Assembly (NCBI RefSeq): GCF_001968985.1
Contig: NZ_MOEN01000007.1
Coordinates: forward strand, 1 to 63,673
DNA: 63,673 nucleotides
Source: Desulfurobacterium indicum
Lineage (GTDB): Bacteria; Aquificota; Aquificia; Desulfurobacteriales; Desulfurobacteriaceae
Direction: 5' to 3'
The notes under the pieces were generated by a model. It had not been told where the DNA came from and did not search any database. It saw only the letters and a list, made by a program, of their open reading frames with translations. The position numbers and the translations under genes are program-made. Below, piece by piece: positions 42,693-54,357 of this stretch (position 1 is its first letter; each line of letters starts with the position of its first letter).

Positions 42693-42716
42693 AGGGGAAA
42701 TTACTTCCCCTTTTTC
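42691..42716. terminator. Bidirectional terminator between aldehyde dehydrogenase and fur
   Basis: AAAGGGGAA-attac-TTCCCCTTT is followed by TTCTC and more T on the plus strand, and by an A-rich tract that reads as T on the minus strand. The end of the Fur-family gene and its stop codon lie within the stem. Confidence 0.8.
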
Positions 42717-43117
42717 TCTTTTTCCGCACAGAATTTGCATTTGCCAAAGAATGTGTGTTGTGCGTTTTCTATAATATGTCCGGGACCTTCAACAAAATCT
42801 CGTGCCATTTGACATATCGGGATGTCTATGTCGAATATCTTTCCGCAGTAGGTGCAGACAAAATGATGATGATATTCTGTTTTGTAATCGTATCTGGACT
42901 GTTTGTTGACGACGATCTCGCTTATTTTTCCTTCCTTAACCAGCTCTTTCAGAACCCTATATACAGTGGCGAGGCTTATGGTGCTTAGTTCTTTTCTTGC
43001 CCTTTCATAAACCTGCTCAGCTGTTGGATGATCCTTTGAAGTAATTACTGTCCTGTATATAACAACTTTTTGTCTTGTTTGACGTTTACCTTTTTTATCT
43101 CTATGGGAAGTTGTCAT
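42701..43117 (-). CDS. Fur/PerR-family metal-dependent repressor
   Basis: A dimeric DNA-binding repressor of 138 residues. The winged helix holds STISLATVYRVLKELVKEG near residue 48. The regulatory metal region is EYHHHFVCTYCGKIFDI. Two structural-zinc CxxC pairs (CTYC and CKFC) are present, as in Fur, PerR and Zur. Which metal or peroxide it senses cannot be told. It is likely autoregulated: a perfect palindrome covers its -10 box. It is divergent from the purine nucleoside phosphorylase and from the respiratory operon. Confidence 0.92.
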   Translation of the reverse strand: MTTSHRDKKGKRQTRQKVVIYRTVITSKDHPTAEQVYERARKELSTISLATVYRVLKELVKEGKISEIVVNKQSRYDYKTEYHHHFVCTYCGKIFDIDIPICQMARDFVEGPGHIIENAQHTFFGKCKFCAEKEKKGK

Positions 43118-44122: not shown

Positions 44123-44151
44123 TTGACATTGGAAACAATTTTTTCTAACAT
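44123..44151 (+). promoter_or_regulatory. Promoter of the cytochrome operon
   Basis: TTGACA (44123-44128) and TAACAT (44146-44151) are separated by exactly 17 bases. The pair lies ten bases after the purine phosphorylase stop and ahead of a leader with a 26-codon mini-ORF. No regulator palindrome is evident beside it. Confidence 0.7.
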
Positions 44152-44191
44152 ACGTTGCAGGATGTTTGTGGTGGGATAGGAGGTTAGAATA

Positions 44192-44272
44192 TTGATAGTG
44201 GTGGAAAAAGGGGACAAGCTTCCGAAAGCTTTTTACATAAAAACAATAGAACACAAGGATGGGTGGAGATGA
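44192..44272 (+). CDS. 26-codon mini-ORF upstream of and overlapping the diheme lipoprotein
   Basis: TTG at 44192 has GGAGGT seven bases upstream. The frame reads MIVVEKGDKLPKAFYIKTIE and ends after six more residues with TGA, which overlaps the next ATG (ATGA at 44269-44272). No signal peptide or helix is visible. It could be a leader peptide or a coupling device for the lipoprotein, whose own upstream bases (GGATGGGTGGAG) are mostly inside this ORF. A chance occurrence is possible; a TTG start alone is weak evidence. Confidence 0.4.
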   Translation: MIVVEKGDKLPKAFYIKTIEHKDGWR

Positions 44273-44634
44273 AAAAGGTATTGTTTCTATCAGCCATGGT
44301 TCTTTTTGCTGCTTCATGCGGCACGGTTCAAACGAAACCTGCCGTGGAGAAGCCTACCGTGGAAAACAAAACTCAGGAAGTGAAGCCTGAGAAAAAGGTG
44401 GAAGCAGAAATTAAACCTAAGGTAACTGTGCCTGAGGAAGAACTTACACTTTCAAAATTCAGGCACAAGGATCACATGGTTATTATCAAAAAGTATGGTT
44501 GCCTGCCCTGCCATCATTTTAACGTGGAGATGCACATTCCTGATGTTAAAAGGGCGAAGGTTGTTTCTCAGAAGTTTTTAAAGCCAGGAGTGGCAAGTTG
44601 TAAGGCTTGTCATACACAAGGAGTTAAGCAATGA
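44269..44634 (+). CDS. Diheme c-type cytochrome lipoprotein
   Basis: A 121-residue lipoprotein with signal MKKVLFLSAMVLFAASC; Cys17 would be lipidated. It has a Lys/Glu/Pro-rich tether (residues 20-60), then two heme sites CLPCH and CKACH and a conserved His in FRHKDH. It is likely anchored in the outer leaflet of a membrane facing the periplasm. ATG 44269 is chosen because it overlaps the mini-ORF stop and gives the lipoprotein signal; an upstream GTG at 44263 adds two residues. It is the first cytochrome of the operon. Confidence 0.85.
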   Translation: MKKVLFLSAMVLFAASCGTVQTKPAVEKPTVENKTQEVKPEKKVEAEIKPKVTVPEEELTLSKFRHKDHMVIIKKYGCLPCHHFNVEMHIPDVKRAKVVSQKFLKPGVASCKACHTQGVKQ

Positions 44635-44675
44635 GTAAGGAACAAGAAACTTATAGTGTAGGGGGTCTGGAGTGA
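44631..44675 (+). CDS. 14-codon mini-ORF between the first two cytochrome genes
   Basis: ATG 44631 overlaps the lipoprotein stop (ATGA) and has AAGGAG seven bases upstream, the best ribosome site in this stretch. The frame reads MSKEQETYSVGGLE and stops with TGA, which overlaps the GTG start of the next gene (GTGA at 44672-44675). A 14-residue product is unlikely to act as a protein; it looks like a translational relay that hands ribosomes to the multiheme gene, whose own site (GGGGGT) is within it. It was read directly from the sequence. Confidence 0.4.
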   Translation: MSKEQETYSVGGLE

Positions 44676-45784
44676 GAGCTTTTATAATGTTCTTATTGGG
44701 AGTGCTTACCCTCTGTGGAACGGCCCGTGCTAATGTGAACATAGGAGACGACGGATGTCTCTACTGTCACAGGCTTAAAGGGCTGATGGTTGTAGAGGAT
44801 AACAGCAAAGGCGAAAAGGTAATTAAGGACTGTAGCATCAACGATGCGAAATATCTTCACTCGGTCCACAGGAACATCCACTGTACTGAATGTCACACGA
44901 AAGCAACATCTTACCCACACAACAGAGCAGTTGTAAGAGAAGTAAACTGTGCGGCAAAGTGTCACGTGATTGATCCGGCAACAAAAAGGCCGTTTTCCCA
45001 TGCAGCTGTTTATAAAACATGGGAAGAGAGTGTGCACGGTAAAAATTATAAGAAGGCACCTGATCTTTATCCTAACTGTCAATACTGCCATACAAACAGA
45101 CTTCTTGTTGACATTAAAAAGTTTGAGACTCTTGAGGGAAGTTTTGATAGGTGTTACCTCTGTCACAACAATAAAGAGTGGTCTGCTGACAGGCTTGCTC
45201 ACGTTGCAAGCAGAATGGATATTCCCGAAATTAAAAACGGCTATGTTTTCCAGTTTATTAAAACAAGAAGAGATGGATGGCAAATCGTTGAGCTTTGTGC
45301 AAGCTGTCATGAAGATAAGAAGAAGATGGAAGAAGCTATAAAAATTGAAGGTATTCATAACAAGTATTTAAAACAAAGGATACTTGAAGCTGTTGAATCT
45401 TACGAAAAAACAATGCACTCAAAGATGTTATACCTTGATAGATCAGATACAAGAGCGGCTGACTGTTTAGACTGTCACACGAATAAAGATGGTAATTTCC
45501 ACGATATCTTCCATAAAGACGATCCGAGATCTTCTATCAATCCGAGAAACATTGAGCAGACATGTGGTCGTTCAACAGAATGTCACCCGCTTGCTCCTAA
45601 GTATCACATGAAAAACTTTGCCGAGACCAAGTGGGTTCACGTTGACCCTGTGCTTGGTGAGGACCTTTCTCAGACGATAGCATGGGGTGTTGAGGAAGGA
45701 ATGTTCTGGATGGCTGCTTCAGTTATTCTCTTTGCAGCAATAGTTGTTATTCTTGATACCCTCAAATTTGTGAGGAGGAAGTAA
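44672..45784 (+). CDS. Membrane-anchored multiheme cytochrome c (six CXXCH, two atypical sites)
   Basis: A 370-residue exported cytochrome with signal peptide (MRAFIMFLLGVLTLCGTARA) and a C-terminal membrane helix near residues 345-365. Canonical heme sites in order: CLYCH, CTECH, CQYCH, CYLCH, CASCH and CLDCH. Two additional candidates have unusual spacing: CAAKCH (CX3CH) after CTECH and CGRSTECH (CX5CH) near residue 300. The topology and its pairing with a cytochrome b resemble the seven-heme subunit of Geobacter Cbc-type quinol dehydrogenases. It probably passes electrons from the quinone pool to the periplasm. Confidence 0.85.
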   Translation: MRAFIMFLLGVLTLCGTARANVNIGDDGCLYCHRLKGLMVVEDNSKGEKVIKDCSINDAKYLHSVHRNIHCTECHTKATSYPHNRAVVREVNCAAKCHVIDPATKRPFSHAAVYKTWEESVHGKNYKKAPDLYPNCQYCHTNRLLVDIKKFETLEGSFDRCYLCHNNKEWSADRLAHVASRMDIPEIKNGYVFQFIKTRRDGWQIVELCASCHEDKKKMEEAIKIEGIHNKYLKQRILEAVESYEKTMHSKMLYLDRSDTRAADCLDCHTNKDGNFHDIFHKDDPRSSINPRNIEQTCGRSTECHPLAPKYHMKNFAETKWVHVDPVLGEDLSQTIAWGVEEGMFWMAASVILFAAIVVILDTLKFVRRK

Positions 45785-45785
45785 T

Positions 45786-46709
45786 ATGGGATGGCTTAAA
45801 AGAAAATTTAGAATGAGAGAGGATTATGAGAAACTTATTATTGTGGACGGTGATAAGTTTTTCATTGAAAAGTGGACAGTAATGCAGTCTCTTATGCATG
45901 TCGGTATTATGACGATGATTATGCAGGTTATAACAGGTTTCCCTCTTAAATACTGGAATACGCCGTGGGCAAAATATATTGTGAAAGCTCTTGGAGGAAT
46001 AAATGGTCTTATGACCATTCACAGGGTTGAAGGTGCCGTAATGTTTTTTGACTTCCTATTTGTTGTTTTCTATTGCATAATGTTCATGATAGCCAACAGG
46101 GATAGGGTTAAAAAGTATGGTTTCTGGGACACTTATAGGCTTCTTCCAGGTCCTACAGATGTAGCGGCAGTACAGTATTTTAAATATCTTCTTGGTTTTA
46201 GAAAATCCCCGCCAGATTATGACGAGTATATGTGGGTTGATAAGTTTGATTTTTTTGCAGTTGGCTGGGGTATGATTGCAATTGGTATTACTGGCTGGAT
46301 TCTCTGGCTTCCAGAAGTATTTACAGGATTCTTACATCTTCCACCTGTATCAATACAGATAGCTCTTATTGCTCATGCAGATGAAGGTATGGTTGCCGTT
46401 GGATGGATTGCTCTTGTTCACCTTTACATGACCCACTATAGTCCACACAAATTCCCGATGGATTGGATATGGCTTACAGGTATTTCTCCTGAACTTGAAT
46501 GGATGGAAGAGAGACCTCGTTCATGGAGAAGAATTATTAAGAGGACAGCCGAGCATGAGCCCGAGCTTCTTGAAAAGTATCCTGCTTTAAAAGAGAGATA
46601 TGAGTTTGTTAAATCTATAGAGAACCTGCCAAACGAGGAGATTGTTGCAAGAATTCATGAATATGCACATCACCTTCTTGAAAAGGAACTTAGCGAGGAG
46701 GCAGCATAA
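45786..46709 (+). CDS. Integral membrane cytochrome b (quinol dehydrogenase subunit)
   Basis: A 307-residue inner-membrane protein with about four to five hydrophobic helices. Histidine pairs in helices are candidates for two b hemes: MQSLMHVGIMTM and TIHRVEGAVM in one half, and ALIAHADEGMV and ALVHLYMTHYSPH in the other. The layout matches the FdnI/HybB/cytochrome b561-type diheme b family and the CbcB-like partners of multiheme cytochromes. The gene starts one base after the preceding cytochrome and overlaps the next by one, so it should form a complex with both. Confidence 0.82.
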   Translation: MGWLKRKFRMREDYEKLIIVDGDKFFIEKWTVMQSLMHVGIMTMIMQVITGFPLKYWNTPWAKYIVKALGGINGLMTIHRVEGAVMFFDFLFVVFYCIMFMIANRDRVKKYGFWDTYRLLPGPTDVAAVQYFKYLLGFRKSPPDYDEYMWVDKFDFFAVGWGMIAIGITGWILWLPEVFTGFLHLPPVSIQIALIAHADEGMVAVGWIALVHLYMTHYSPHKFPMDWIWLTGISPELEWMEERPRSWRRIIKRTAEHEPELLEKYPALKERYEFVKSIENLPNEEIVARIHEYAHHLLEKELSEEAA

Positions 46710-47452
46710 TGAGAAAACTTGTTTTTGCGATAGCACTTAGTTTTCCTGTTACAGCTTTTGCAGGAGGAGTTATCAGTCCTCTTTTAAAGGGAAATCCATC
46801 CCCTGATATTTCTGGATGGGAAAAGAAGATAGAGGAGCAGCTAAAAGAAAAACCGCAGTTTCCAAAGGAAACAGAATATCCGCAGCCGTTTCACGCTCCT
46901 AACGGTTATGAGTATCCTGTAAGGGATATATGTGTGGCTTGCCATTCATATGCGGCTCATACTAAAGATGAGACGTTGTCACCTTTCTATAATGCTCACT
47001 CAACATTTATGAGCTGTACCGTGTGTCACTATAAGGAAGCAGGGCTTACTTATGCATGGGTTGAAATAGCCAAAGATGGAAAAATGAAAATAGTAAAAGA
47101 CACCGAAGACATGTATGGAGTTAGATACGTTAAGGCTGGTGATAGAGTTGCTCTTTCCGGTCTTGACAGTGATGCAAGGATAACTCCTCTTGTTAACGGA
47201 AAACCGATTGATATTCCTCTAAAAGGTAATGAAGGGCTTCTTCATGATGCGGCAGCGGTTTCAAAGATTTATAACAATCTTGCTAAAAAGCCTTATACGT
47301 GTGCTGATTGCCATGAAGGAAATAATCCTCTTAACCTTGTAGGACTAGGTTTCTCTCAAGAGAGAATAAATGAGATCGAAAACAATGAAGTTGTGAAAGG
47401 ATTGCTTAAGGACGGAAAGATTTACTTCCCAAACTTCATCTGGAAGAGGTAA
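46709..47452 (+). CDS. Triheme c-type cytochrome
   Basis: A 247-residue exported protein with signal peptide MRKLVFAIALSFPVTAFA. Three heme motifs: CVACH near residue 70, CTVCH near 100 and CADCH near 195. A long middle stretch (110-185) contains no heme and may be a beta domain. It starts at the last base of the cytochrome b gene. Probably a periplasmic electron carrier or a subunit of the same complex. I do not know a named family. Confidence 0.82.
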   Translation: MRKLVFAIALSFPVTAFAGGVISPLLKGNPSPDISGWEKKIEEQLKEKPQFPKETEYPQPFHAPNGYEYPVRDICVACHSYAAHTKDETLSPFYNAHSTFMSCTVCHYKEAGLTYAWVEIAKDGKMKIVKDTEDMYGVRYVKAGDRVALSGLDSDARITPLVNGKPIDIPLKGNEGLLHDAAAVSKIYNNLAKKPYTCADCHEGNNPLNLVGLGFSQERINEIENNEVVKGLLKDGKIYFPNFIWKR

Positions 47453-47456
47453 AGCG

Positions 47457-48263
47457 ATGAGATTTTTAATAGCAGTGTTGTTTACAATTGTTTCTTTTAC
47501 CGTTCCGTCTTTTGCCGGTGAAATCAGCGGGAACTTTAAGTTTCCGTCTGATATAGCTGTTTCGTCAAACAGAATTTATGTGGTTGACGGACTTAACGGA
47601 AGGATAGTTGTCCTTTCCAAAGAAGGCAAGAAATTAAGCACGATAAAGGCTGATAATCCTTACGGTATTTATGTGGATGCTGACAATATCTATGTTGCTT
47701 CACAGTCGGGCAAAGTTTTTGTTTTTTCAAAAGATGGGGAACTTAAAAAAACCATAGATGTTTCAGGAAGGCTTGTTGATGTTGTCAAGCTTGGGGATAA
47801 TCTGTGGGTTACGGATGCAAAAAATAACTGTGTAAAGGTTGTTTCTCTTAAAACCGGAAAGTTGATTAAGAGTATAGGTGAAAAAGGTTCTGTTCCAGGA
47901 GACTTTGTTTCTCCGTTTATGCTGGCTACTGACGGAAAAGATGTTTATGTTGTAGATTCCATCAACGCAAGGGTAGAAGTTTTTGATAAAGATGGAAACT
48001 TTGTAAGGACATTCGGTGACTTTGGTGTTGAAGAAGGAGATCTATATAGGCCAAAAGGTATAGCTGTATTTAACGGAGAAGTTGCCGTTTCTGATGTTGT
48101 TAACGGTGCTGTTCAGCTTTTTAATCCATATGGAGCTTTTGACGGTGTTGTTGCTAAAGGACTTCAATATCCAATCTCTATTGCTTACGATGCAGGTACT
48201 CTTTACGTTCTGGAGCCTCTGAAAAACAAGATACTTACATTTAACGTACAAGGGGTTAAATAA
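47457..48263 (+). CDS. Exported NHL-repeat beta-propeller protein
   Basis: A 268-residue secreted protein with signal peptide (residues 1-20, ending TVPSFAG). Six NHL-type blades are recognisable, each with the pattern 'hydrophobic-D-x2-N-x-R-x2-hydrophobic-[FL]': VVDGLNGRIVVL, ASQSGKVFVFS, VTDAKNNCVKVVS, VVDSINARVEVFD, VSDVVNGAVQLFN and VLEPLKNKILTFN. NHL proteins occur beside multiheme cytochromes in extracellular electron conduits and serve as scaffolds. No enzyme motif is seen. Confidence 0.88.
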   Translation: MRFLIAVLFTIVSFTVPSFAGEISGNFKFPSDIAVSSNRIYVVDGLNGRIVVLSKEGKKLSTIKADNPYGIYVDADNIYVASQSGKVFVFSKDGELKKTIDVSGRLVDVVKLGDNLWVTDAKNNCVKVVSLKTGKLIKSIGEKGSVPGDFVSPFMLATDGKDVYVVDSINARVEVFDKDGNFVRTFGDFGVEEGDLYRPKGIAVFNGEVAVSDVVNGAVQLFNPYGAFDGVVAKGLQYPISIAYDAGTLYVLEPLKNKILTFNVQGVK

Positions 48264-50791
48264 TGAGGAAGACCTTAGCTATTCTTCTATCAGTGGTTGC
48301 GATACCAACAGTTTCTCATGCAAAACTTGAGAAAAGCATGAAGAAAGACTGTCTGGTTTGTCACCAGAACTGGCTGCTGGAAGCTAAGGTAAGTTCTCCT
48401 AAGCTTCTTACCGATAGGACTTTAACCGCAGGGGATACGATAATGTGTTTAACCTGCCATGACGGTTCTATGGCAGATGACAGATTAACATTTTTGAATT
48501 TTGGTAAGCATTCTCACCCTGTTGATGTTAAAGTTCCTGCCGATATGGAAATTCCCAAAAAGTTTCCGCTTCATAACGGAAAACTCTTCTGCGGAACCTG
48601 CCATACGCCTCACTCAGAGGTGGGCAGCCAGGACAAGCTGGACTATACATTTATGAGATTTAAAAATACTGATTCAAGTATGTGTATAGAGTGTCATAAG
48701 AATAACGCGGGACACGGTAATCACCCTATTCTTGCCGATACTGCTGGGAAGATGTCTTCATTTGTAATAGCTAAAATAGAGTCTTTACACGGTAAAGTTG
48801 GCAAGGACGGAGAGGTTACCTGCCAATCATGCCATGCTGCCCATAAAGGACAGGGAGAACATGCTCTTATTGTTTCAAATAAAAATTCTCAGCTCTGTTC
48901 CGTATGTCACACGGAAGAATTGAACTCTCCCGAACACAAGAACAATATGTCTCACCCGATCCTTGTTGCTGTGAATTCTCTTGGTGTTAAACCTGCAGAA
49001 ACAGGCTTGAAGTTCGGAAGTGAAGATAAGGTAGAATGTTATACATGCCATAAAGTTCACCATTCTAAAGAGACTAAACTTCTTGCTGAATCTCCAAAAG
49101 CTCTCTGCATCGCTTGTCACGTTTCCGAAAAGACAGCTCTTCATTCGAAGCACGGATTTGCTGATAAAGATGCCTGCCTTGAATGTCACACGGCTCATAA
49201 AGCTGTTGGCCCAAATCTTTGGGGTAGAAAGCTTAACGACAAAGCCGAAGCTTATGCTGTATATCTGAATGCTTCTAACGAAGATAAGATGTGTATTTCA
49301 TGCCACTATCCGGGTGGTGAAGCTCCTGATATAGGAACGATTTCTCACCCGACAAATGTTGAGACGAAATTTAAGTCTCTACCTCTTAAAAATGGAAAAG
49401 TTGCCTGTGTTACCTGTCACAATCCACATAAATGGAGTGTAGTTGGTGCTCCTGAATCCGACAGGCCTAACGGAAGTTTCCTTAGAGTTCCTGAAAAAGA
49501 TCTGTGTGGGAGATGTCATCCAGGAAATTGTGCATGTAAAAAGGGAGTTCATGCAGCAATTAATGTTAAAAATGTTCTCGGAGAGACATCGAAGAATGCT
49601 GGAAATTGTGCTGCATGTCACGTTCCGCACAAGGCAGTTGGTGCATACCTTAAAGGTATTAAAGGTGGAGAGGGGCTTGATAACGTTTCTTCCTTCTGTA
49701 TGGCCTGTCACGGAAAAGGCGGCGTAGCGAAAGCCAAGGTTATGGCAGGTAAATTTAAGGATCACCCGATTGATGTCAGAATGAAAGATGGAAGTGTCGT
49801 GACATGTTCAAGCTGCCATAATCCTCACAATGCCAATCCTTATGCGCTTGTTAAGCCGGTTGAAGGTGATTCATCTCTCTGTTTGGAATGTCATAGAAGT
49901 AAGAATCTTAAAGGAACAGCTCACTATCTTGTTGCAAAAGACGGAAATATTGAAAAGAACGGGCAGTGTTCTGCATGTCATACGCCTCACAATCCTAAGG
50001 GGCCTACACTCTGGAGCAGGGAACTCGGAGAAGGAAAAACGGTTAACGAAAAACAGTGTAGTTCCTGTCACGCTCCGGGTGAAATGGCTGCAAATCTCAC
50101 GACCGGTAAGATTACTCATCCACTCGGCGGAAAAGTTGATTCAGAAGTTGTTCCGGCTATTAATCAAAAGACGGGACTTCCCGGAGAGGGAGTTGTTGAC
50201 TGTGCGAGCTGTCACGATCCACACGGAAGTGCTGCAGCTAAACCGTTCCTTAGAGTTACGAATAATGGAAGTAAGTTGTGTATTTCTTGTCACAAGGCAG
50301 AAGCTTCTATTAAAGGAACCGGTCATGACATTAATGGACAGATGTGTTCTACATGTCACGTTCCTCACCAGGCTAAAAGTGCTTTCCTCTGGAAGATGGA
50401 TATTAAGCACTTTACATATCCAAACGGAGAAGCGGTTGACAGGGCTTCTTCCTACTGTCTCACCTGTCACAGCAAAGGCGGCATAGCAGAAAATGCTACG
50501 GTTAAATATTATTTCCATCCAAGAGCCGACTTTGATATCGTTGCTCAGGATAGGCCTGGCAGAAAAGGTGTATGGCCTATTTTTGCAGAAGATGGTTCTG
50601 AATTTAAAAGAGGTGGAGCGATTGCCTGTGAAACATGTCACGATGCTCACATTCACGGTAAAACTTACTTCTTGAGAAATAAAACTGTTGCCGGAAGCAC
50701 CTGTGTTGATTGCCACGGTGATGAAGCTCTTATTAGATACATGTGGTATCATAAAAAAGAGGTTAGACAGTCCACATCAAGCTATAAGTAA
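48263..50791 (+). CDS. Very large multiheme c-type cytochrome with 24 CXXCH motifs
   Basis: An 842-residue exported protein with signal peptide MRKTLAILLSVVAIPTVSHA. I count 24 CXXCH heme-binding motifs spread evenly along the chain, about one every 34 residues. They come with frequent bis-His partners in the form 'THPI/HPV' and 'H-x-x-H' and many CH-[NTV]-PH repeats typical of doubled-CXXCH modules. One cysteine pair (NCACKKG) lacks the histidine. No membrane helix or lipobox is visible, so it is periplasmic or extracellular. It is likely the long-range electron conductor of this operon. Length and heme count exceed most known cytochromes of such clusters. Confidence 0.9.
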   Translation: MRKTLAILLSVVAIPTVSHAKLEKSMKKDCLVCHQNWLLEAKVSSPKLLTDRTLTAGDTIMCLTCHDGSMADDRLTFLNFGKHSHPVDVKVPADMEIPKKFPLHNGKLFCGTCHTPHSEVGSQDKLDYTFMRFKNTDSSMCIECHKNNAGHGNHPILADTAGKMSSFVIAKIESLHGKVGKDGEVTCQSCHAAHKGQGEHALIVSNKNSQLCSVCHTEELNSPEHKNNMSHPILVAVNSLGVKPAETGLKFGSEDKVECYTCHKVHHSKETKLLAESPKALCIACHVSEKTALHSKHGFADKDACLECHTAHKAVGPNLWGRKLNDKAEAYAVYLNASNEDKMCISCHYPGGEAPDIGTISHPTNVETKFKSLPLKNGKVACVTCHNPHKWSVVGAPESDRPNGSFLRVPEKDLCGRCHPGNCACKKGVHAAINVKNVLGETSKNAGNCAACHVPHKAVGAYLKGIKGGEGLDNVSSFCMACHGKGGVAKAKVMAGKFKDHPIDVRMKDGSVVTCSSCHNPHNANPYALVKPVEGDSSLCLECHRSKNLKGTAHYLVAKDGNIEKNGQCSACHTPHNPKGPTLWSRELGEGKTVNEKQCSSCHAPGEMAANLTTGKITHPLGGKVDSEVVPAINQKTGLPGEGVVDCASCHDPHGSAAAKPFLRVTNNGSKLCISCHKAEASIKGTGHDINGQMCSTCHVPHQAKSAFLWKMDIKHFTYPNGEAVDRASSYCLTCHSKGGIAENATVKYYFHPRADFDIVAQDRPGRKGVWPIFAEDGSEFKRGGAIACETCHDAHIHGKTYFLRNKTVAGSTCVDCHGDEALIRYMWYHKKEVRQSTSSYK

Positions 50792-50814
50792 ATTAACTCA
50801 GGAGGAAGCTGCAG

Positions 50815-50976
50815 ATGGCTAAGGAGATGACAAGAGAAGAGTTTGAAAGATATTCATGGAAGAAAGCATGGATAGTTTTGGCAGCTGTATTTATTATTCT
50901 TTTCCTTCCATGGATACTTATTTGGTTTGTTAAATTTGTTCACTGGTATGCTCAATCATTCTTTATGTGGTTATAA
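50815..50976 (+). CDS. 53-residue single-helix membrane protein
   Basis: Read directly: ATG 50815 with GGAGG eight bases upstream, stop TAA at 50974. The protein begins MAKEMTREEFERYSWKKA and has one hydrophobic helix near residues 19-38 (WIVLAAVFIILFLPWILI), then FVKFVHWYAQSFFMWL. His/Trp residues at the far end could sit near a heme or quinone. It is probably a small accessory subunit of the cytochrome complex. Confidence 0.7.
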   Translation: MAKEMTREEFERYSWKKAWIVLAAVFIILFLPWILIWFVKFVHWYAQSFFMWL

Positions 50977-50990
50977 TCGGGAGGTGAGAG

Positions 50991-51161
50991 ATGGCTCATA
51001 GCGGAGAATTTCATGAAAAAATGGAAAAAATAAATTTCTTTAAAAGCTGGATATCTGCGTTTGAACTTTTAGTTGCTATACTTACGGTAGGTATGGTTTC
51101 AATAAATTGTGTGAAGCAGGGATTTCATCTCTTCCATCTTTTCTTTGGCGGTGGACATTAA
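50991..51161 (+). CDS. 56-residue single-helix membrane protein
   Basis: Read directly: ATG 50991 with GGGAGGTGAGAG upstream, stop TAA at 51159. It starts MAHSGEFHEKMEKINFFKSW, with a helix near residues 22-40 (SAFELLVAILTVGMVSIN) and a C-terminal FHLFHLFFGGGH with several histidines. Genes for two tiny membrane proteins side by side after a multiheme cytochrome recall the small subunits of Geobacter cbc clusters, though sequence similarity cannot be judged here. Confidence 0.7.
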   Translation: MAHSGEFHEKMEKINFFKSWISAFELLVAILTVGMVSINCVKQGFHLFHLFFGGGH

Positions 51162-51178
51162 TTTGTTGGAGATCATTT

Positions 51179-52921
51179 TTGAGACTGATAAGCTCAAAGG
51201 GCAGGGTGCTTTTGGTACTTCTGCCCTTTTTCTTTTTTTCATGTTATGAACCTGTTGGAGAACCTGTTGGTAATAGTACTCTCGGGAAGAGAGTAAACCC
51301 CTCAAAAGTTCATTTTCAAAAAGGTATCTATGGGGGAGTTCTTTACGATTCTTCATCGTCTGATCCAAAAACTTTTAACCTTGTTTTTGCCCATGAGACA
51401 TCTTCAACAGGTGCTGTTGGTGGACTTTTTGAAGGTCTTACTGATGTTGACATTAAAACATTAAAACCTACAGGTAGGCTTGCAGTTTCGTGGGAATTCA
51501 AAGCCAAAGGTACGAGGTGGATATTTCATTTAAGGAAAAATGTTAGGTGGTTTGACGGCAAACCTTTTACGGCTGACGATGTTGTTTTTACTTACAAAGA
51601 TATCTACTTTAATCACCGTTATCCCAATTCTGTGAAGGATATGTTTGAAATCGACGGTAAACTTCCAGAGGTTAAAAAACTTGACAATTATACGGTTGAA
51701 TTTATTTTGCCCGAACCTTTTGCTCCTCTTCTTTACTCACTTTCGGCTGCTATTTTTCCGAAGCATGCTCTTGAAAAATCTGTAAAGGATGGAAGCTTTA
51801 AAAATATCTGGACGATATCAACACCACCTGAAAAGCTTATAGGAACAGGACCTTATAAGCTTGTTAAGTATGTTCCTGGGCAATATCTCGTTTACGAGAG
51901 AAATCCCTACTATTACATGAAGGATAGTTATGGTAGTAAACTGCCTTATGTGGAAAAGAAGGTTACATATATTCTTCCACAAAAAGATACGGAGCTTTTA
52001 AAATTTAAAAATGGTGAAATAGACTTTTATGGCCTTTCGGGAGATGATTTTCCTTCTTTGAAAAAGGAAGAAAAATATAAAAATTTTACCATATATAATT
52101 TAGGTCCTTCTTTAACGGCAGATTTCTTGTGTTTTAATGAGAAAAAGAGAGCAATTCCCGACTGGAAGTGGAAGCTTTTTTCAAACGCAACTTTTAGAAG
52201 AGCCATTTCTCATGCTGTTGACAGAAAGGGTATAGTCCTAACAGTTTATAACGGTCTTGGTTTTCCTGTCTATACACCGGTTACGCCGGCCAACACTCTC
52301 TATTACGATAAAAATGCTCCAAAATTCCCTTATGATCTGAAAAAGGCGAAGAAGCTGCTGGAGAGTTTGGGGTTGAAAGATAGAAACGGAGACGGATGGC
52401 TTGAAACGCCTGACGGTCATAAAGTGGAATTTAATCTCCTTACAAATTCCAACAATCCTGCAAGGGTTCGGATAGGAACGATTTTAAAGTTTGATTTTAA
52501 AAGGCTTGGTATAGATGTTCACTTTCAGCCTCTTGATTTTAACAACCTTGTTGATAAGCTTCTTAACACTCATGATTTTGATGCCGTTATTATAGGACTT
52601 ACAGGTTCGATGGATCCAAACGGTGGTAAAAATGTCTGGAAAAGTTCAGGTCAGCTCCATCTGTGGAATCCGGGACAGAAAAAGCCTGCAACAAAATGGG
52701 AAGCTGAAGTTGATAGACTTTTTGACGAAGGTGTGAAAGAGCTTGATTTTAAAAAGAGGGTGAAAATTTATAAGGAAGTTTACAGAATAATATGCCGGCA
52801 GCAACCGGTTATTTATATAGCTGCTCCTATTGTTCTTGAAGCTGCAAGGGACAGGGTTAAAAATTATTTTCCGACTATATGGGGAATCTATAAGCCAGAA
52901 AAAATCTTCATAAAAGAGTGA
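51179..52921 (+). CDS. Family 5 extracellular solute-binding lipoprotein (peptide/nickel type)
   Basis: A 580-residue SBP_bac_5 protein. Its signal is lipoprotein-like: MRLISSKGRVLLVLLPFFFFSC, Cys22. The binding-protein signatures are YDSSSSDPKTFNLVF near residue 52, WEFKAKGTRWIFHLRKNVRWFDGKPFTADDVVFT near 100 and RAISHAVDRKGIV near 345. TTG 51179 is favoured because GGAGA lies six bases before it and it begins the signal; a longer frame upstream overlaps the 56-residue gene. No permease or ATPase genes of an ABC importer are next to it, so its partner is elsewhere or it has another role. It follows the small membrane gene after 17 bases. Confidence 0.82.
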   Translation: MRLISSKGRVLLVLLPFFFFSCYEPVGEPVGNSTLGKRVNPSKVHFQKGIYGGVLYDSSSSDPKTFNLVFAHETSSTGAVGGLFEGLTDVDIKTLKPTGRLAVSWEFKAKGTRWIFHLRKNVRWFDGKPFTADDVVFTYKDIYFNHRYPNSVKDMFEIDGKLPEVKKLDNYTVEFILPEPFAPLLYSLSAAIFPKHALEKSVKDGSFKNIWTISTPPEKLIGTGPYKLVKYVPGQYLVYERNPYYYMKDSYGSKLPYVEKKVTYILPQKDTELLKFKNGEIDFYGLSGDDFPSLKKEEKYKNFTIYNLGPSLTADFLCFNEKKRAIPDWKWKLFSNATFRRAISHAVDRKGIVLTVYNGLGFPVYTPVTPANTLYYDKNAPKFPYDLKKAKKLLESLGLKDRNGDGWLETPDGHKVEFNLLTNSNNPARVRIGTILKFDFKRLGIDVHFQPLDFNNLVDKLLNTHDFDAVIIGLTGSMDPNGGKNVWKSSGQLHLWNPGQKKPATKWEAEVDRLFDEGVKELDFKKRVKIYKEVYRIICRQQPVIYIAAPIVLEAARDRVKNYFPTIWGIYKPEKIFIKE

Positions 52922-52978
52922 TATAATTTTTTCTGCTGTAACTAAAAAAGGAACAATTTAGTCCCGAGGGAGGAACTT

Positions 52979-54325
52979 ATGGTTGAAGAGATAGGAGCGC
53001 ATATGCCTCTATGGTTGACCATACCTTTTGCCGGAATTCTTCTTTCTATTGCTGTTTTGCCTCTTATGGCTCCTCATTTCTGGCACAAACATTTTGGTAA
53101 GGTTTCAGCTTTTTGGGCTGTTGCGTGTGCGATACCTTTTATCGCTATGTATGGCGGTACTGCGGTTCATGATATTTTGCACACAATTCTGGTTGAATAT
53201 ATTCCGTTTCTTGTTCTTCTTGGAGCCCTTTATACGATTGCAGGAGGTATCTATATAAAGGGTTCTTTTGTTGGAAAACCTATTTTTAATACAGTACTCC
53301 TTTTTATAGGTGCAATGCTTGCGTCGTTTATGGGAACGACTGGTGCTGCAATGCTTCTTGTTCGTCCTTTGATAAGAGCTAACAGATGGAGAAAGTATAA
53401 AACATTTGTAATTGTTTTCTTTATTTTTCTTGTTGCCAATATAGGCGGTGCATTAACGCCGCTTGGAGATCCTCCTCTGTTTTTAGGTTTCTTAAAGGGC
53501 GTGCCATTTTTCTTTACATTGAGGCTTATTCCTATATGGATGACGGCAGTTGTTATCGTCCTTGGGATATTCTTTGCCATAGATTCTTATTATTATGCGA
53601 AAGAGGATAAATCCACGATTCCAATAGGTGATGAGAAGTTTGAAATTTTAGGTTCAATAAATTTTCTTTTCCTTCTTGGTGTTCTTGTTGCTGTTCTTTT
53701 AAGTGGTATTGTTCATCTTCCTAAGATTAATGTTCTGGGTGTTCATCTTTACCTTCAGGATGTTTTGAGAGACATTTTCCTTCTTGTTCTGACAGTTCTT
53801 TCAATTCTTTTGACACCTCCAATGGTGAGAGAAAAGAACGAGTTTACCTGGTTTCCTATAAAAGAGGTTGCTATTCTCTTTATAGGTATTTTTATTGCTA
53901 TGATTCCGTGTTTAAAAATTCTTGAGGCTGGTGAACACGGTCCTGCGGGTGGGTTGATTCATATGCTCTCTGAACCTTATCACTATTTCTGGGCTACGGG
54001 AACACTCTCTTCATTTCTTGATAACGCACCTACATATTTGACATTTTTAATGACAGCTCTTGGAAAGTTTTATCCGGGTGTTCCTGTTAAAATTGCTGTT
54101 CATAAGTTGATAGCCACTCATTCGATTTACCTTGAGGCTATATCCGCCGGTGCTGTTTTCTTTGGTGCGATTACCTATATCGGGAATGCGCCAAACTTTA
54201 TGGTTGCTTCTATCGCAAGGGAACAGGGTGTTGAAATGCCCTCATTTTTCGGTTATATCGTTAAGTATTCAATTCCGGTTTTGGTTACAACGTTTGTGAT
54301 TCTTACGATTATCTTTTTTAGATAA
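52979..54325 (+). CDS. CitMHS/NhaD-type ion transporter (sodium:proton antiporter family)
   Basis: A 448-residue polytopic membrane protein with about twelve helices of the ion-transporter superfamily. Family-like stretches: MGTTGAAMLLVRPLIRAN near residue 118, NIGGALTPLGDPPLFLGFLKG near 154, SSFLDNAPTYLTFLMTALG near 342, and GAITYIGNAPNFMVASIA near 398. These paired 'G-x-x-T-P-x-G-D/N-P' loops are typical of NhaD/ArsB/CitMHS. A Na+/H+ antiporter or carboxylate carrier is possible. It starts 57 bases after the solute-binding gene, with GAGGGAGG upstream, and may close the respiratory operon by ion balance. Confidence 0.82.
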   Translation: MVEEIGAHMPLWLTIPFAGILLSIAVLPLMAPHFWHKHFGKVSAFWAVACAIPFIAMYGGTAVHDILHTILVEYIPFLVLLGALYTIAGGIYIKGSFVGKPIFNTVLLFIGAMLASFMGTTGAAMLLVRPLIRANRWRKYKTFVIVFFIFLVANIGGALTPLGDPPLFLGFLKGVPFFFTLRLIPIWMTAVVIVLGIFFAIDSYYYAKEDKSTIPIGDEKFEILGSINFLFLLGVLVAVLLSGIVHLPKINVLGVHLYLQDVLRDIFLLVLTVLSILLTPPMVREKNEFTWFPIKEVAILFIGIFIAMIPCLKILEAGEHGPAGGLIHMLSEPYHYFWATGTLSSFLDNAPTYLTFLMTALGKFYPGVPVKIAVHKLIATHSIYLEAISAGAVFFGAITYIGNAPNFMVASIAREQGVEMPSFFGYIVKYSIPVLVTTFVILTIIFFR

Positions 54326-54357
54326 AAATCTTTGGGTGGTTGTTTGCCGCCCTTTTA

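Follow-up and report, generated by a model that had tools for sequence, protein, structure and literature searches.

A putative quinol dehydrogenase and 24-heme cytochrome module in Desulfurobacterium indicum, conserved across phyla and apparently without its porin

Gene order and transcription signals of the operon

The window analyzed here is a 63,673-nucleotide stretch of DNA from Desulfurobacterium indicum, a bacterium of the hydrothermal-vent type (RefSeq accession number NZ_MOEN01000007.1, positions 1 to 63,673), corresponding to contig C7 of a 1.6-Mb assembly that is 99.98% complete. It carries an operon of ten open reading frames (ORFs), all on the + strand between positions 44263 and 54325, that encode in order a diheme lipoprotein (lipo2), a membrane-anchored multiheme cytochrome (MHC8), a cytochrome b (cytb), a triheme cytochrome (MHC3), an NHL-repeat propeller, a 24-heme cytochrome (MHC24), two one-helix proteins (sm1 and sm2), a family 5 solute-binding lipoprotein (SBP5), and a transporter (Table 1). 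The gene content, gene order, and heme counts agree with an initial annotation of positions 44123 to 54325, as does the spacing of mostly less than 20 bases between genes. The transporter, first described as CitMHS/NhaD type, resolves to CitMHS_2, and the Aquificota-like host suggested at that stage is a member of the Desulfurobacteriaceae.

A strong promoter had been proposed upstream of lipo2. A plain scan of the window did not find promoter-type sites above chance (18 found versus 27.7 expected); however, the site TTGACA-N17-TAACAT and the 17-nt leader element that directly follows it (TGGTGGGATAGGAGGTT) are kept in sequence and place upstream of the operon in two further genomes of the genus (G001 and G003), and the promoter-like site is therefore probably real. 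Three species of the genus share an identical leader element, for which an Rfam search gave no match; it is possibly the start of a leader ORF or a regulatory element. Upstream of the operon, on the − strand at 42701 to 43117, lies a gene that by eye resembles a Fur/PerR-like regulator, a possible regulator.

Both atypical heme sites of MHC8, CX3CH (C93-H98) and CX5CH (C298-H305), are invariant among 11 homologues. MHC8 shares 69% identity with the D. thermolithotrophum-type protein and is, on sequence comparison, the orthologue of Dester_0351 and Theam_0871. The published identity between those two proteins is 79% (PMC4245776), and 79% was also found between the MHC8 proteins of genome G011, which is Thermovibrio ammonificans HB-1 (it carries pTHEAM01), and G005, which is most likely D. 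thermolithotrophum. Four histidines of cytb (38, 79, 197, and 212) are invariant in 17 sequences and, by their placement, would ligate two hemes, a layout that we take to be that of formate dehydrogenase and hydrogenase b subunits; a menaquinol site is proposed. MHC3 carries three additional invariant histidines (62, 84, and 97) placed as second ligands. An AlphaFold2 model of MHC3 (predicted local distance difference test [pLDDT] score, 77) yielded no Protein Data Bank match in a fold search, and that of MHC24 (mean pLDDT, 64) was too poor to be used. No Pfam match was obtained for sm1 or sm2.

Table 1. Features of the operon and its flanks (window coordinates)
Feature	Position	Strand	CXXCH motifs	Distance to next gene (nt)	Details
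Promoter-like site	44123..44151	+			TTGACA-N17-TAACAT, 10/12 match, followed by conserved leader
Leader element	44160..44190				TGGTGGGATAGGAGGTT
lipo2	44263..44634	+	2	37	Diheme lipoprotein; lipobox FAASC
MHC8	44672..45784	+	6	1	Anchored cytochrome; signal peptide, additional CX3CH and CX5CH, C-terminal transmembrane helix
cytb	45786..46709	+	0	-1	Cytochrome b; PF01292, 4.1e-8, 33.7 bits (above Pfam cut-off of 30.1)
MHC3	46709..47452	+	3	4	Triheme cytochrome; signal peptide
NHL	47457..48263	+	0	-1	NHL-repeat beta-propeller; signal peptide; PF01436, 3.4e-16
MHC24	48263..50791	+	24	23	Secreted 24-heme cytochrome; PF09699, 8e-60
sm1	50815..50976	+	0	14	One-helix protein, 53 amino acids; conserved throughout the family
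sm2	50991..51161	+	0	17	One-helix protein, 56 amino acids; similar small ORFs after sm1 in other genera (by eye)
SBP5	51179..52921	+	0	57	SBP_bac_5 lipoprotein; TTG start; lipobox FFFSC; PF00496, 1.2e-85
CitMHS_2	52979..54325	+	0		Ion/dicarboxylate-type transporter; PF16980, 8.1e-174
Terminator-like hairpin	54334..54352	+			Directly 3' of last gene

A conserved unit and its natural fusions

Across the 19 loci compared in the Desulfurobacteriales, some of them cut by contig ends, the order MHC8-cytb-MHC3-NHL-MHC24-sm1 is kept in every module-bearing Desulfurobacteriaceae genome with an intact contig, and thus the genes are not scattered among relatives. By this comparison the conserved unit is MHC8-cytb-MHC3-NHL-MHC24-sm1-sm2 and ends after sm2, a shorter block than the operon as first drawn. 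SBP_bac_5 and CitMHS_2 follow the module in the genus of the window only (G000, G001, and G003) and were for that reason rejected as parts of the machine. The SBP_bac_5 gene has no adjoining ABC permease gene; three species of the genus keep it in a fixed position after the cytochrome module. In G001, the core genes from MHC8 onward are 85 to 94% identical to those of the window, in which all ten ORFs are intact.

Within the Aquificota, cytb was found in 22 of 136 genomes, all belonging to the order Desulfurobacteriales. Relatives identified through cytb carry the titles Desulfurobacteriaceae, Thermovibrio, or Desulfurobacterium, and one contig, L033, with the title Desulfurobacterium sp., seems to derive from a metagenome-assembled genome of the window's own genus (g1). 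The wire protein has 24 hemes in the Desulfurobacteriaceae, or 28 in two genomes, and a 13-heme version is present in G022, which represents a second family of the order. Only one genome of the Desulfurobacteriaceae lacked any trace of the module: cytb and MHC3 were not found in G010, which is 98% complete.

Profiles of cytb and MHC3 were used to search beyond the Aquificota, and 11 loci with MHC8, cytb, MHC3, NHL, and a 28-heme protein were identified in the Deferribacterota. One of these genomes (G401) is Deferribacter desulfuricans SSM1; its second contig matches the megaplasmid pDF308 (100% identity over 4.3 kb), which places the genome in the Deferribacterota. Its gene order (10-heme, MHC8, cytb, MHC3, NHL, 28-heme, and 13-heme) matches the published 19-gene Deferribacter cluster, in which a cytochrome b561 is third and a 28-heme protein is included (PMC13186404, PMC6896113). 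Families outside these two phyla carry 18-, 34-, and 38-heme versions of the wire protein. A tblastn search of plasmids with cytb found nothing.

MHC8 adjoins cytb in all module loci, and in two genomes (L087 and L177) one ORF, 904 or 922 residues long and with six plus three CXXCH motifs, runs from MHC8 through cytb to MHC3. In L175, cytb and MHC3 are fused in one ORF of 641 amino acids, and in L178 and L180 MHC8 is joined to MHC3 without cytb. Because the three proteins are naturally fused in some genomes, there is strong sequence evidence that MHC8, cytb, and MHC3 act as one assembly. Next to the MHC8-MHC3 fusions without cytochrome b of the two family f90 genomes lie genes for proteins of ∼2,430 to 2,530 residues with 37 CXXCH motifs (L178:9727-17304 and L180:4375-11655). 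The cytb profile also found another type of bc fusion, in which 19 CXXCH motifs are joined to cytochrome b in single proteins of 931 to 956 amino acids (L104:7796 and L105:6881).

Heme ligation and comparison with known systems

Besides its 24 motif histidines, MHC24 has exactly 24 others that reach ≥85% conservation in 24 homologues; in MHC3, three conserved histidines add to the three of the motifs, and MHC8 has nine for eight heme sites, the two atypical sites counted. These numbers fit bis-histidine hemes throughout the three cytochromes. Since every heme has a conserved partner histidine, MHC24 and MHC3 are predicted to be a wire and not a catalytic center. MHC24 carries one heme per 35 residues, close to the density of MtrA-type wires (∼33 residues per heme; PMC5566968). 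It gave repeated partial matches to the DmsE decaheme model TIGR03508 (145.7 bits versus a cut-off of 192.2) and is not assigned to the DmsE/MtrA family, and against solved filament subunits of the OmcS/OmcE type it showed no full-length similarity, with only 40- to 50-residue matches to 9yuq and 7tfs. MHC8 had no NCBIfam match and carries more conserved histidines than bis-histidine ligation needs, so it does not qualify as an octaheme tetrathionate or hydroxylamine enzyme.

The composition of the operon, for which the initial annotation had no name, is in relatives part of two described clusters. One was described in D. thermolithotrophum, T. ammonificans, and Denitrovibrio acetiphilus as the group III porin-cytochrome (Pcc) cluster (Shi et al. 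2014, PMC4245776). It shares the MHC8 orthologue with six CX2CH and two atypical motifs, and the whole downstream module is common to the D. thermolithotrophum-type and T. ammonificans genomes, whereas in the window's genus no porin is detectable and the lipoprotein has only two hemes. In the text of that paper, the separate cytochrome b, triheme cytochrome, NHL protein, and 24/28-heme protein are not described as one module. The other is the Deferribacter 19-gene cluster (DEFDS_0741-0760; PMC6896113, PMC13186404), which shares the order of the 10-heme protein, MHC8, cytochrome b in third place, triheme cytochrome, NHL protein, and 28-heme protein. It differs in having 28 rather than 24 hemes and extra 13-, 10-, and 8-heme genes; in addition, no sm1 was recognized there, and the Deferribacter MHC3 has an N-terminal membrane anchor.

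The likening of the b/c pair to the Geobacter Cbc complexes, CbcBA included, holds in kind: both pair a cytochrome b with a multiheme cytochrome c at the inner membrane, with a quinone link that is predicted here, and the window has a PF01292 cytochrome b beside an anchored multiheme cytochrome c, as expected of a Cbc-like quinol dehydrogenase. The triheme cytochrome, NHL protein, and giant wire as fixed partners set the module apart. PCC3 systems of the Gallionellaceae and others (PMC5566968, PMC10734462) also combine a giant periplasmic multiheme cytochrome with an inner-membrane b-type protein. However, that protein contains two HX13H motifs, whereas the histidines of cytb give HX14H once, and the window locus has neither a porin nor an extracellular giant cytochrome. 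Membership in PCC3 or PCC4, defined by a five-transmembrane-helix protein with two HX13H motifs, was ruled out by the histidine pattern of cytb.

The outer-membrane end, acceptor, and direction of electron flow

In all 16 Desulfurobacteriaceae loci from other genera that include the 5′ end, three genes lie directly upstream of the module, for a barrel protein, a lipoprotein with seven hemes, and another 7-heme cytochrome, an arrangement that identifies the locus as the group III Pcc cluster described by Shi et al. (PMC4245776). The barrel protein has ∼420 residues and beta-barrel character; it is called a barrel from the character of its sequence, its position, and what has been published on Pcc, and its Pfam match was only a weak one to Porin_4. 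Profile searches of solved structures with MHC8, cytb, and the barrel returned nothing informative. In contrast to the 16 of 16 other-genus genomes, the barrel profile (A6) found no homologue in any of the four genomes of the window's genus, nor was a barrel recognized in or beside the operon when the loci of three of these genomes were read. The extracellular end assumed by the initial annotation is thus weaker than supposed. The lipoprotein of this genus has two hemes compared with seven in other genera, and lipo2 matches the N-terminal portion of its 7-heme homologue (phmmer E value, 1.3e−14). The window genome has a homologue of the companion 7-heme cytochrome at C1, apart from the module. 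In the Deferribacterota, the barrel lies ∼9 kb from the module in two genomes, and 7-heme-like lipoproteins are found near it in two others. The parsimonious reading is that the window's genus lost the porin, as well as most of the surface cytochrome. A less likely alternative, considered because G022 from the second family also gave no match to the barrel, is that the barrel was ancestrally absent and gained in the other genera.

Three classes of known terminal reductase were looked for and not found in this genus. PF00384 molybdo-enzymes were absent from all four of its genomes, three of which are ≥99% complete; G005 has one such gene, with an in-frame TGA. NrfD occurs in three Desulfurobacteriales genomes only and in none of the genus, and siroheme reductases (NIR_SIR) were found in none of the 24 genomes of the order. 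G010, which lacks the module, carries a PhsA-like molybdo-enzyme operon with FeS and NrfD subunits (L203:5817-10369). This is no more than a hint about function, since NrfD and the module occur together in two other genomes. In the literature, D. thermolithotrophum and T. ammonificans count as reducers of elemental sulfur, and a quinol-cycling role has been proposed for their MHC8 (PMC4245776); the sulfur reduction pathway of the latter is described as remaining unclear (PMC5441870).

Taken together, the locus probably encodes a membrane menaquinol dehydrogenase that feeds a long periplasmic 24-heme wire. Menaquinol is very probably the donor: cytb, with its two b hemes, would oxidize menaquinol kept reduced by a group 1 hydrogenase and pass electrons to the membrane-anchored octaheme MHC8 and to MHC3 within one complex. 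From there, electrons would move through contact with the 24-heme protein bridging the periplasm, with the NHL propeller probably docking or scaffolding the wire and sm1 and sm2 probably stabilizing the membrane part. In other genera, the wire would meet the conduit encoded directly upstream; in the window's genus, the exit appears reduced, with no detectable porin, a diheme instead of a 7-heme lipoprotein, and the companion cytochrome elsewhere. The most likely acceptor would be a sulfur compound, with reduction either at the outer membrane or inside it; it is favored because three classes of known terminal reductase are absent and relatives reduce elemental sulfur, and the assignment is tentative. 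Going further, the 24-heme wire of a porin-less conduit derivative could have become a periplasm-internal electron bus for sulfur respiration without molybdopterin, NrfD, or siroheme reductase, which we consider unlikely.

Several points weigh against the dehydrogenase-and-wire proposal. No solved structure resembles MHC8, cytb, or MHC3, and the sulfur acceptor is argued from the absence of other enzymes, cytoplasmic sulfhydrogenases not having been searched for. A non-homologous porin in the window's genus would restore an extracellular exit, and flow may be reversed, since the CbcBA of Seep-SRB2 is thought to run towards quinone (PMC10553843). The conduit would still be complete if an unrelated barrel encoded elsewhere replaced the porin and electrons left for minerals, elemental sulfur particles, or partners. 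The full conduit of the sister genera, the 7-heme companion retained in the window genome, and the likeness of MHC24 to other long wires, for example the 21- to 27-heme periplasmic cytochromes of PCC3 (PMC10734462), speak for this, but the missing barrel homologue, the failure to recognize any barrel at the loci read, and a lipoprotein with two hemes rather than seven leave it on the unlikely side. A reverse flow, in which the quinone pool receives electrons through the wire from reduced compounds or from a partner, is improbable. Although bc complexes of this kind may be reversible, as the Seep-SRB2 example suggests, cultured Desulfurobacteriaceae are H2 oxidizers (PMC6265342, PMC5441870) whose quinones are already fed by hydrogenase, and the locus is retained in reducers of elemental sulfur.

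A decaying system with little flux in the window's genus is about as improbable. The absent porin and shortened lipoprotein would suit a remnant, the term also applied to the D. desulfuricans cluster (PMC6896113, PMC13186404), but the ten intact ORFs, the conserved promoter, and the high identity of the core genes in G001 do not, and no Mo-, NrfD-, or siroheme-type reductase was found instead. A terminal reductase role of one of the cytochromes, with nitrite, hydroxylamine, sulfite, or tetrathionate as substrate, is very improbable: the nitrite-to-ammonium and elemental sulfur reduction pathways of T. ammonificans would leave room for such an enzyme, as both are unresolved (PMC5441870), but the extra conserved histidines match or exceed the hemes in all three cytochromes and no CXXCK site was seen. 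This reading was set aside on the histidine counts together with the lack of any reductase family match above cut-off.

The system is real, conserved, and already partly described, as the quinol dehydrogenase and wire part of the Pcc conduit. Two points are new: the unit is defined here as one module that spans phyla and is naturally fused in places, and one genus seems to have lost the porin, together with most of its surface cytochrome, while the rest was kept intact. The fusions and the fixed triheme, NHL, and giant wire partners make the module biochemically testable, and the missing porin offers a natural comparison of a conduit with and without its outer-membrane end. With regard to sulfur reduction in the Desulfurobacteriaceae, the window's genus is without the enzyme classes usually invoked, and the module is the main recognized quinol-linked exit, other exits not having been searched exhaustively. 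Elsewhere in G000 (C6, L199:3236-4840, − strand), an octaheme cytochrome of the tetrathionate reductase family (TIGR04315, below cut-off) is encoded beside the group 1 hydrogenase, and its reading frame is interrupted by an in-frame TAA in this assembly.

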